In this document: one piece after another, positions 6,718-63,476 of the stretch
Layout of the letters: every line of letters begins with the position of its first letter
Numbering within the stretch: the stretch's first letter is position 1
Source: Mucilaginibacter celer
Lineage (GTDB): Bacteria > Bacteroidota > Bacteroidia > Sphingobacteriales > Sphingobacteriaceae
Assembly (NCBI RefSeq): GCF_003576455.2
Contig: NZ_CP032869.1
Location: 5,828,001 to 5,892,000 of the forward strand
Direction of reading: 5' to 3'
Length of the DNA stretch: 64,000 bases
Notes under the pieces: model-generated
What the model was told of the DNA's origin: nothing
What the model saw: the letters and a program-made list of their open reading frames with translations, nothing else
Databases searched by the model: none
Made by a program: the position numbers and the translations under genes

Positions 6718-8298
6718 ATGCGCAGGATATTTTTAGTTATTTTATCATTATCAACACTTTTTACCATCCCGGCTTTTGCCCAGGTGCCCGGAGCCAATAT
6801 TGATGTTAGGCATTATACGTTTGATATTAAACTTAACGATGCCGATAACAACATCAAAGGCAAGGCTACAGTTACCGCAAAGTTTTTAAGCAATGCCACC
6901 GGCTTCAACCTCGACCTGGTAAAAACTAATGCCAAAGGTAAAGGCATGCTGGTATCGGCGGTAACTGAAAACGGGAAGCCGGTAAAATTTACCCAGGATG
7001 ATGAGCAGCTGAAAATAACCACCCGCGCGCTAAAAGGCAATACACGAGATTATACCATTACTTACAGCGGCATCCCGGCCGATGGCCTCATTATATCAAC
7101 CAACGCTTATGGTCACCGTACTTTTTTTGGTGATAACTGGCCAAACCGCGCCCACAACTGGCTGCCCTGTGTTGATAATATAGCGGATAAAGCCCCTGTT
7201 GATTTTATAGTAACCGCGCCCGACCATTACCAGGTAGTATCAAACGGTTTGCAAACCGAAGAAAAACAATTACCCGGCAAAATGAAGTTAACCCATTGGG
7301 TTGAAACCGTAGCCCTGCCAACCAAGGTAATGGTGATAGGCGTTGCCGAATTTGCCATCGATCATCCGGGTGATGTTAATGGCATCCCGGTGTTTACCTA
7401 CGTGTTTCCGGAAAGCAAGGAAGTTGGATTTAAGAATTATGCGGTAGCTAAAGATATCCTGCCCTATTTTATAAAAAATGTTGGCCCCTACAGTTATGAG
7501 AAGCTGGCCAACGTGCAGTCAAAAACCATTTTTGGCGGTATGGAAAATGCCAGTGCCATTTTTTATTTTGAAGAATCGGTTAAAACACCGGGCATTGAAG
7601 AGCTGATGGCCCATGAAATTGCCCACCAATGGTTTGGCGATGGTGCCAGCGAAAAAAGCTTTGGTCACCTGTGGTTAAGTGAGGGTTTTGCTACTTATAT
7701 GACCAACCTGTACCTCGAAAACAAATACGGTGCCGATACCCTGAAAACCAGGCTTATTGCCGATCGTAAAAAAGTGATAGGCTTTGAAAAAGCCCGTTTA
7801 ACCCCGGTTGTTGACACCGCCGTTAAAACCAAATACATGCAACTGCTCAATGCCAACAGTTACGAAAAAGGCGGCTGGGTACTGCATATGCTAAGGCGCA
7901 ACTTAGGCGATGCCACGTTTTGGAAAGGCATACGTAATTACTACGCCAAATACCAGGGCAGCAACGCCAATACGGATGATTTAAGGCGCATAATGGAGCA
8001 AACCAGCGGTAAAGATCTGAAACAATTTTTTACCCAATGGCTGCGCACCGCCGGCCACCCCAAACTGGCCGTTAAATGGACCTGGGACGAGAAGGAAAGC
8101 AGCCTAACCATCAACGTACTGCAAAACCAGGATTATGTTTACCAGTTTCCGTTAGAGATTGGGATTGATAGTGAAGTATTAACCATCATGGTAAAGGAAA
8201 AATCGGCAACGATACACTACAAAATGAAGGCAAAGCCAACGGATGTTAAGATTGACCCGAACGTGAATTTGCTGGCTACTTTTGATGAGGAAATGTAG
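6718..8298 (+). CDS. Secreted M1-family metalloaminopeptidase
   Basis: A signal peptide (ending IPAFAQ) is followed by the M1 beta-saddle domain. The exopeptidase motif GGMEN is at 273-277. The gluzincin zinc site is HEIAH at 299-303, with the third ligand Glu at 322 in LSEGFATYM. The family removes N-terminal residues from peptides. At 526 residues it lacks the long C-terminal helical domain of PepN, as other short periplasmic M1 enzymes do. It probably acts in the periplasm or outside the cell in peptide nutrition. A repeat element starts eight bases after the stop. Confidence 0.92.
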   Translation: MRRIFLVILSLSTLFTIPAFAQVPGANIDVRHYTFDIKLNDADNNIKGKATVTAKFLSNATGFNLDLVKTNAKGKGMLVSAVTENGKPVKFTQDDEQLKITTRALKGNTRDYTITYSGIPADGLIISTNAYGHRTFFGDNWPNRAHNWLPCVDNIADKAPVDFIVTAPDHYQVVSNGLQTEEKQLPGKMKLTHWVETVALPTKVMVIGVAEFAIDHPGDVNGIPVFTYVFPESKEVGFKNYAVAKDILPYFIKNVGPYSYEKLANVQSKTIFGGMENASAIFYFEESVKTPGIEELMAHEIAHQWFGDGASEKSFGHLWLSEGFATYMTNLYLENKYGADTLKTRLIADRKKVIGFEKARLTPVVDTAVKTKYMQLLNANSYEKGGWVLHMLRRNLGDATFWKGIRNYYAKYQGSNANTDDLRRIMEQTSGKDLKQFFTQWLRTAGHPKLAVKWTWDEKESSLTINVLQNQDYVYQFPLEIGIDSEVLTIMVKEKSATIHYKMKAKPTDVKIDPNVNLLATFDEEM

Positions 8299-61727: not shown

Positions 61728-62063
61728 TTGTCTGAACCTAAATTTTAAGGAATTTAAAGGATTTTTTGAATTGGTTCAGAAGTTGTTTAGAAGCAGTGAA
61801 AGCCATTTACATATAAGTAAAACTTCATTGCCCTTGGTTTTAACCAACGGAATAATTAGCGGCGACAAGAGGGCTTCAGCCCAAATCAGCTTGCTTAGTT
61901 GGGCTAAAGCCCGGAATTTGCAGCTCTTCTTCCGTTGGTTAAAACCAACGGCTATGAGTATTTTAATTTTTAAATAGTCTATCAGCATTCTGTAGATTCT
62001 TTAAATTCTCCCAAATTCCAGTTCAGACAAATTCTAAAATTCTGTAAATTCTGATTCAGACAA
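61728..62063. repeat. Dispersed TTGTCTGAA...TTCAGACAA repeat with another element inside
   Basis: The left arm TTGTCTGAACCTAAATTTTA starts two bases after the esterase stop. Two right-arm units, AAATTCCAGTTCAGACAA and TGTAAATTCTGATTCAGACAA, end near 62031 and at 62063. Between them lies a separate element at 61834-61948. The left and right parts resemble the uninterrupted copies elsewhere. Confidence 0.75.
61834..61948. repeat. Element with 19-bp perfect inverted repeats
   Basis: TTGGTTTTAACCAACGGAA at 61834-61852 is the exact complement of TTCCGTTGGTTAAAACCAA at 61930-61948. Inside, GGGCTTCAGCCC and GGGCTAAAGCCC are themselves palindromic. No ORF lies in it. Confidence 0.85.
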
Positions 62064-62129
62064 ACTAACAGTTGAACAATAATGTGCGATTATCATTATT
62101 TTGTCAGTTTTGATTAGTCGAACATACCA

Positions 62130-62238
62130 TTATCACTGTTGGCTGCGTTAATCTACATTGTAGGTTAACACCTGCAAATAGTGATAAGGTTTAGGTTTAA
62201 AGCCCCCAAGCAGCGAGTGCAAGGGGGCTTTTATTTTA
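62130..62238 (+). ncRNA. Candidate structured small RNA or transcribed leader
   Basis: TTATCACT (62130-62137) pairs with AGTGATAA (62180-62187). Within it GTTAATCTAC (62147-62156) pairs with GTAGGTTAAC (62160-62169), with one T-G wobble and an ATT loop. A terminator stem AGCCCCC / GGGGGCT (62201-62229) followed by TTTTATTTT ends it. No ORF lies upstream to need that terminator. It could be an independent small RNA, or an attenuator in the leader of the Gre-like gene, whose ATG is 72 nt further on. No clear promoter was found. Confidence 0.5.
62201..62238 (+). terminator. Terminator at the end of the candidate RNA
   Basis: AGCCCCC and GGGGGCT enclose a 15-base loop and are followed by TTTTATTTT. 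Confidence 0.8.
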
Positions 62239-62309
62239 ATAGGTGCCATTGTTTTTGCTGTGCGATATTCTTCTTTTCTTCTACCTTAGTTTTTTTGTTA
62301 ATACCGTAA

Positions 62310-62762
62310 ATGAGCGATCTTAAAAAACAACTACACCAGCTATGCATTAACTATGTGCGCAAAAGCATGGAGGCGGCCCAGGATGCAATAAATGATGCCC
62401 AAAAAGCATCAACAGATGATACCAAAAGCAGCGCAGGCGATAAGTACGAAACCGGCCGCGAAATGATGCAGCAGGAAACCGACCGTAATATGGCCCAACT
62501 TAACGAGGCTAATAAATTGCTGGTAGCCCTTAACCGAATCAGTACCGCAGGCACATCTGCAAAAGCAGAGCCCGGTAGTGTGATTAGCACCAATAACGGC
62601 AACTTTTACCTGGCCATAAGCGCAGGAAGTTTAATTTTGGATGGTAAAAGCTACTTTGCCGTATCGCCGGCATCGCCGGTAGGCAGCAAACTTATGGGGA
62701 AACAGCCTGGCGACAGCTTTATATTGAACGGCAAAACATACATTATCGAATCGGTTTTGTGA
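62310..62762 (+). CDS. GreA/GreB-like C-terminal domain protein
   Basis: The 150-residue protein has a charged helical N-terminal half (about 1-75, MSDLKKQLHQLCINYVRKSMEAAQDAINDAQK) and a C-terminal half like the GreA/GreB FKBP-like domain (SPASPVGSKLMGKQPGDSFILNGKTYIIESV). Such Bacteroidota proteins are often mislabelled 3-oxoacyl-ACP synthase. A role on RNA polymerase is plausible; whether it cleaves backtracked RNA is unknown. It follows a structured leader or small RNA and may be controlled by it. Confidence 0.75.
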   Translation: MSDLKKQLHQLCINYVRKSMEAAQDAINDAQKASTDDTKSSAGDKYETGREMMQQETDRNMAQLNEANKLLVALNRISTAGTSAKAEPGSVISTNNGNFYLAISAGSLILDGKSYFAVSPASPVGSKLMGKQPGDSFILNGKTYIIESVL

Positions 62763-63095: not shown

Positions 63096-63476
63096 ATGAA
63101 CATATTCGTAGGAAGTCTTCCTTTTTCTTTAGGGGAAGCCGATTTAAGACAGCTTTTCGAAGCTTATGGTGAAGTTAACTCCGTAAAAATTATTATTGAC
63201 AGGGAATCAGGAAGAAGCAAAGGGTTCGGATTCATTGAAATGGCAGATGATGAAGCAGGACAACAAGCTATCAGCGGCCTTAACGGTTCAGAAGTTAAAG
63301 GAAGATCAATTGCAGTAAGCCAGGCAGAAGAAAAAAAACCAGGCGGTGATCGCAGAAGCAGCGGTGGTGGTTACGGTGGTGGCAACCGCAGTGGCGGTGG
63401 TTACGGTGGCGGCAACCGTGGCGGTGGCGGCGGTTACTCGCGCGATAACCGTGGCGGCGGCGGCAAAAGCTGGTAA
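63096..63476 (+). CDS. RRM RNA-binding protein with Gly-rich tail
   Basis: Residues 1-80 are one RRM: RNP2 is IFVGSL at 3-8 and RNP1 is SKGFGFIEM near 47. Residues 88-126 form an RGG/GGGY-type tail. Bacterial single-RRM proteins of this form bind RNA and are often induced by cold, acting much like cold-shock proteins. The palindrome over its promoter suggests regulation. A terminator follows closely. Confidence 0.93.
   Translation: MNIFVGSLPFSLGEADLRQLFEAYGEVNSVKIIIDRESGRSKGFGFIEMADDEAGQQAISGLNGSEVKGRSIAVSQAEEKKPGGDRRSSGGGYGGGNRSGGGYGGGNRGGGGGYSRDNRGGGGKSW

Follow-up and report, generated by a model that had tools for sequence, protein, structure and literature searches.

The question raised by this locus is what a strongly folded, terminator-ended sequence without a protein-coding gene is doing ahead of a gene for a possible RNA polymerase-binding protein. 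It was found in the window, by which we mean the whole stretch of 64,000 nucleotides of Mucilaginibacter celer DNA analysed, and a sequence-only reading had left the choice between a small RNA and a transcription attenuator. Most of what is known of post-transcriptional regulation in Bacteroidota comes from Bacteroides. Comparison with related loci indicates that the predicted transcript (Table 1) is probably one of a set of paralogous, stress-wired and trans-acting antisense RNAs that block translation initiation.

The window copy is intergenic, with an esterase gene on one side and a 150-aa gene on the other. As the sequence-only reading had it, there is no ORF of note over the structured stretch: the ORF check of the window gave no credible frame within 62125-62240. 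A short GTG-start frame spanning the core described below was rejected as coding, since the third positions of the core never vary. The 116 nt of 62125-62240 fold with -50.3 kcal/mol (z -7.3), and the part preceding the terminator has a z of -5.5 when folded alone. The terminator noticed earlier is present and strong. Two nested stems reported with it, TTATCACT (62130-62137) with AGTGATAA (62180-62187) and GTTAATCTAC with GTAGGTTAAC, can both be drawn in the window, but it is a smaller hairpin that is conserved (Table 1). Orthologues L012, L014 and L015 have lost the outer stem; its arm AGTGATAA is the start of the invariant core and its other arm TTATCACT falls within the promoter spacer.

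Two kinds of repeats lie upstream of the small RNA gene. Just upstream, at 61828-61960, there is a long imperfect inverted repeat (TTGGTTTTAACCAACGG ... CCGTTGGTTAAAACCAACGG) with the palindrome GGGCTTCAGCCC / GGGCTAAAGCCC inside it, which resembles a repeat element, or else the terminator region of the esterase gene. Imperfect direct repeats of the TTCTGTAGATTCTTTAAATTCT / TTCTGTAAATTCTGATTCAGACAAA type occupy 61988-62065, between the esterase gene and the small RNA.

Table 1. Features of the window copy and its neighbours, and predicted targets with conserved sites
Feature	Position or locus	Strand	Basis or remark
ECF-sigma-like promoter (ACC, 17-nt spacer, CGTT)	62126..62149	+	motif only
Predicted transcript, ~80 nt	62156..62237	+	5' end inferred from promoter motif
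5' hairpin, 8 bp, 4-nt loop, TTGTAGGT-TAAC-ACCTGCAA	62158..62177	+	structure conserved, sequence not
Invariant core GTGATAAGGTTTAGGTT, proposed seed	62181..62197	+	sequence comparison
Rho-independent terminator, loop GCAGCGAGTGC, T-rich tail	62199..62237	+	62199-62207 pairs with 62223-62231
Small protein gene, conserved neighbour	62310..62762	+	weak GreA/GreB C-terminal match
RRM-domain RNA-binding protein gene, conserved neighbour	63096..63476	+	Pfam RRM_1, E 5.9e-21
PLD-like gene, predicted target	own L333 and L492		64% identical
DUF4236 proteins, predicted targets	L423, L436, L494		58-90% identity
Tail-collar proteins, predicted targets	L414 and L415		exact sites, 49% identical; own L344 weaker match

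The copies share one order of elements: a promoter, a 5' hairpin whose sequence differs from copy to copy, the unpaired 17-mer GTGATAAGGTTTAGGTT and a Rho-independent terminator. Of 185 elements (137 nonredundant), a sample partly chosen by exact match to the core, 182 have the 17-mer without any change. Among 58 model-selected loci (L050-L107), all 17 bases are kept in all but two, and those two differ in the last bases only; nearly all covariance-model matches, other genera included, have the core unchanged. A perfect stem stands directly upstream of the core in 127 of the 137 nonredundant copies (93%), as against 16% of shuffled sequences; these stems are mostly 6-11 bp long and end mostly 2-5 nt from the core. 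Orthologues keep the 5' hairpin of the window copy, L015 by compensation (TTTGCGGGCG..TGCCTGCAAA). Covariation, which the sequence-only reading had put forward as a check, was found in both hairpins: among 25 loci picked by synteny as orthologues of the window copy, 10 pairs carry changes on both sides, and the covariation score was reached by none of 500 shuffles, nor by slid pairings. Since the MAFFT alignment shifts the 5' hairpin of the subgroup of the window copy by one base, this analysis understates the pairing there. An unpaired, invariant 17-mer between two hairpins is the conserved and accessible seed that characterizes trans-acting small RNAs.

In the 7.15-Mb genome of M. celer there are five strong copies with GTGATAAGGTTTAGGTT and the terminator in common, and two weaker, degenerate-looking ones. 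All 36 sampled Mucilaginibacter genomes have from 1 to 15 matches each. In a larger draw, the covariance model of core and terminator detected the element in 35 of 35 genomes of the genus and in 13 of 25 genera of Sphingobacteriaceae, usually as one copy per genome outside Mucilaginibacter. Named records with an exact 19-mer, a few of which are target sites and not copies, come from Mucilaginibacter, Pedobacter, Hufsiella, Daejeonella, Desertivirga, Paradesertivirga, Olivibacter and a few MAGs. The exact 16-mer was confined to this family among 395 genomes of the class, with none in the ~380 class genomes outside that family. Three genomes of one other genus display an independent expansion with the identical core (L495-L509), where the terminator loops are genus-specific (GCTCTCATAGC, GTGAGGAT, GTAGAGGTAC), no long 5' hairpin is clear and the promoters look RpoD-like. 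A literature search found no description of this small-RNA family. The family is real, new, absent from Rfam and of a known kind, and its copy number, covarying hairpins, invariant core, and promoter motifs and terminator of its own give good support to the small RNA among the earlier suggestions.

Three classes of promoter motifs stand at set distances upstream of the hairpin, the assignment to classes being based on motifs only. A CGTT box stands 7-18 nt upstream of the hairpin in 38 of the 127 copies, with 6.7 expected, and the full ECF-like A[AC]C-N15-18-CGTT, the promoter type of ECF-sigma-dependent small RNAs, in 26 of 127 (0.8 expected; motif only). RpoD-like TAnnTTTG was found in 21 copies (1.5 expected) and sigma54-like TGGnW-N6-TTG in 14 (0.4 expected); rpoN is encoded in the M. 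celer genome. The same three classes (TAnnTTTG, -24/-12 and CGT box) have been described in Flavobacterium psychrophilum (PMC9723704). One M. celer copy (L005) is situated 208 nt after an anti-sigma gene, so labelled by position and size with no Pfam match, which itself follows an ECF sigma gene (Sigma70_r2 and r4). The order ECF sigma, anti-sigma, small RNA recurs at ~50 loci, including those of Hufsiella, Daejeonella and other genera, with one such copy per genome, and this recurrence in several genera suggests that it is the ancestral position. The sigma factors that we infer from the motifs would thus be of ECF, sigma54 and housekeeping type.

Candidate targets were sought by complementarity to the core in 1.63 Mb of the M. 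celer genome (1181 ORFs), or among 619 genes in its unselected part. In the 1.63 Mb, complementary 9-mers were found at -40..+10 of 18 genes, compared to 4.6 in dinucleotide shuffles, only 1 of 200 of which reaches that number. For 8-mers the counts were 36 and 19 (9 of 200 shuffles), such shorter matches being weak evidence. The earlier duplex test included stretches picked for having matches, and the 619-gene test repeats it without them: the 10th best start-codon duplex had -17.6 kcal/mol versus -14.9 (sd 0.6), reached by none of 60 shuffles, and no such excess was seen at -175..-110 of the same genes. Within the coding sequence (+60..+125) the excess was weaker but present, and part of the start-codon signal may therefore be due to composition. 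Across the genus, a search for CCTAAACCTTATCA with an ATG inside the next 25 nt picks out many copies of the RNA gene (reverse strand) but also ~20 ORF starts, where an exact 14-mer complement of the core immediately precedes the ATG. At 20 further sites, drawn by the opposite orientation, the orientation test gave five long ORF starts on the target strand and none on the other. Complementarity of the seed to translation start regions, another trait of trans-acting small RNAs, thus exceeds chance, and some orthologous predicted targets, with diverged flanks, have retained the site between proteins of 49-64% identity (Table 1).

The predicted targets range widely in function (PLD-like, TIR, patatin, tail-collar, DUF4236, TerC and TonB receptor) and belong to no single pathway; some are envelope proteins (TonB receptor L491, TerC L439) and many are not. 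Phage-tail-collar (microcystin-dependent-like) genes are predicted targets in three species (L344 8006, - strand coordinates; L414; L415). The candidates of M. celer itself include TIR and patatin genes. One 20-kb stretch (L364, G000 5.74-5.76 Mb) holds a TIR-domain gene and a patatin-like phospholipase gene, starting at 6912 (+) and 8571 (- strand coordinates), both with core-complementary leaders; these are possibly defence-type genes under the small RNA. At L434 (G027:C11:34456-36756) the leader has two consecutive core-complementary stretches (CCTAAACCTTATCACGGATAAACCTAAACTTACAAACCATG).

The alternative of an attenuator or leader, with feedback on the downstream gene, draws on the position of the window copy, the orthologues of which precede the Gre-like gene on the same strand in ~30 loci of the genus. 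The Gre-like label itself holds in part: a GreA/GreB match exists, but with 18.6 bits it is below the Pfam cut-off of 26.9. The RRM gene comes next after it in the syntenic loci where the flank sufficed. Conservation in the genus extends to the neighbourhood of small RNA, Gre-like gene and RRM gene, but not to an obligatory role as leader. Among the copies with enough flank, the next gene is opposite in orientation in 49 of 118 (~40%), so the element is not generally an attenuator, and the obligatory position ahead of the Gre-like gene was found for the window copy only; the single copies found in other genera do not adjoin it. Moreover, the stretch from the terminator to the Gre-like gene varies from 33 to ~160 nt and is unconserved in sequence, with >1 kb between core and gene in L013 and L014, and no mutually exclusive antiterminator helix was apparent on inspection of alignment A2. 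By eye, TAnnTTNG-like elements precede the Gre-like gene in many orthologues. The small RNA has its own promoter motif and terminator, independent of the downstream gene, as befits a trans-acting RNA. Attenuation is thus a very unlikely explanation, and given the conserved synteny, occasional read-through into the Gre-like gene may occur.

A REP or MITE-like repetitive DNA element that doubles as a terminator and has no RNA function in trans would account for the multiple intergenic copies, their number of 1 to 15 and the palindromic 3' part. It would leave unexplained why the palindromes vary and the unpaired 17-mer does not, why ordered promoter motifs stand at fixed distance on the copies and why complementary sites precede start codons in one orientation, and we regard it as most improbable. 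Equally improbable is that the 17-mer is a protein-bound DNA operator, present both at the small RNA loci and upstream of the supposed targets: the exact motif is indeed common to upstream regions of unrelated genes, but it is not palindromic, its orientation and its position adjoining the ATG are strict, and at the small RNA loci it always follows the promoter and is flanked by hairpin and terminator. Somewhat less remote, but still unlikely, is a base-pairing RNA that, in place of repressing translation, activates its targets or serves as a sponge for another RNA or protein. The direction of regulation cannot be read from sequence, and Flavobacterium Rfp18 is needed for full target levels (PMC9723704); on the other hand, sites at start codons usually mean repression, which has been demonstrated through such a site for FopS (PMC11697453).

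In the antisense repressor that we favour, each copy would consist of its own promoter, a 5' hairpin of its own sequence, probably a protective or structural cap, the unpaired invariant 17-nt seed and the terminator hairpin. Once transcribed, the exposed seed would pair in the cell with sites that resemble AACCTAAACCTTATCAC and immediately precede start codons, cover the translation start region and so block ribosome loading on many mRNAs. Because the invariant core is complementary to sites before start codons, the small RNA probably switches these genes off by base pairing. The copies would be wired to different sigma factors (ECF, sigma54 and RpoD), so that different stresses would converge on one target set. 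The RRM protein encoded near the window copy is a possible partner, as judged from gene order. The copies of another genus without a clear 5' hairpin (L495-L509) count against this reading, as does the functional mix of the predicted targets. More tentatively, and with somewhat less than even confidence, the family can be pictured as a family-wide hub, in which one 17-nt antisense seed, duplicated behind ECF, sigma54 and housekeeping promoters, anchored at the ECF sigma/anti-sigma locus and syntenic with an RRM protein, would hold down accessory genes (PLD, TIR, patatin, tail-collar and DUF4236) in many species. The data suggest that paralogous small RNAs can exchange their promoters and still retain a common seed. 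Because the seed can be read and candidate targets and sigma factors can be named, this family-wide small RNA can be tested directly in soil Sphingobacteriaceae.

RybB, MicA and MicL are ECF-sigma-dependent envelope-stress small RNAs of enterobacteria. The present family resembles them in the ECF-type promoter of many copies, in the copy directly after an ECF sigma/anti-sigma pair and in the proposed pairing at start codons. It differs in being multi-copy with mixed promoters and in its predicted targets, which in the sample examined are not mainly outer-membrane proteins, and we know of no sequence relation between them. Pedo-repair (RF01715) and other Bacteroidota motifs of Rfam are likewise structured RNA candidates in related genera, but neither the window nor 20 further copies gave a match at gathering score (Rfam 15). 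The best match at a loose threshold, Phe_leader with 23.5 bits against a cut-off of 55, was dismissed as chance. Rfp11 and Rfp18 of F. psychrophilum are also Bacteroidota small RNAs, Rfp11 with an ECF-type (CGT-box) promoter; unlike the present RNAs they were described individually and not as a paralogous family (PMC9723704), and the present core was not found outside its one family.

FopS and GibS of Bacteroides thetaiotaomicron, with RbpB, are a close parallel, being a paralogous multi-copy Bacteroidota family of short, terminator-ended RNAs whose shared seed is predicted to pair around translation starts (PMC11697453). FopS has been shown to act by covering the translation start region, so that ribosomes cannot load (PMC11697453). 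In FopS the conserved seed is at the 5' end and the 3' part varies, whereas here the constant core and terminator (3') follow a variable 5' hairpin. FopS is 65-70 nt long, has canonical sigmaABfr promoters and targets mainly susC mRNAs, in contrast to the three promoter classes and mixed predicted targets described here (PMC11697453). An RRM protein is involved there, while here an RRM gene only neighbours the window copy (PMC11697453). In Bacteroidota, the combination of multi-copy small RNAs with a nearby RRM protein may be a design that recurs.
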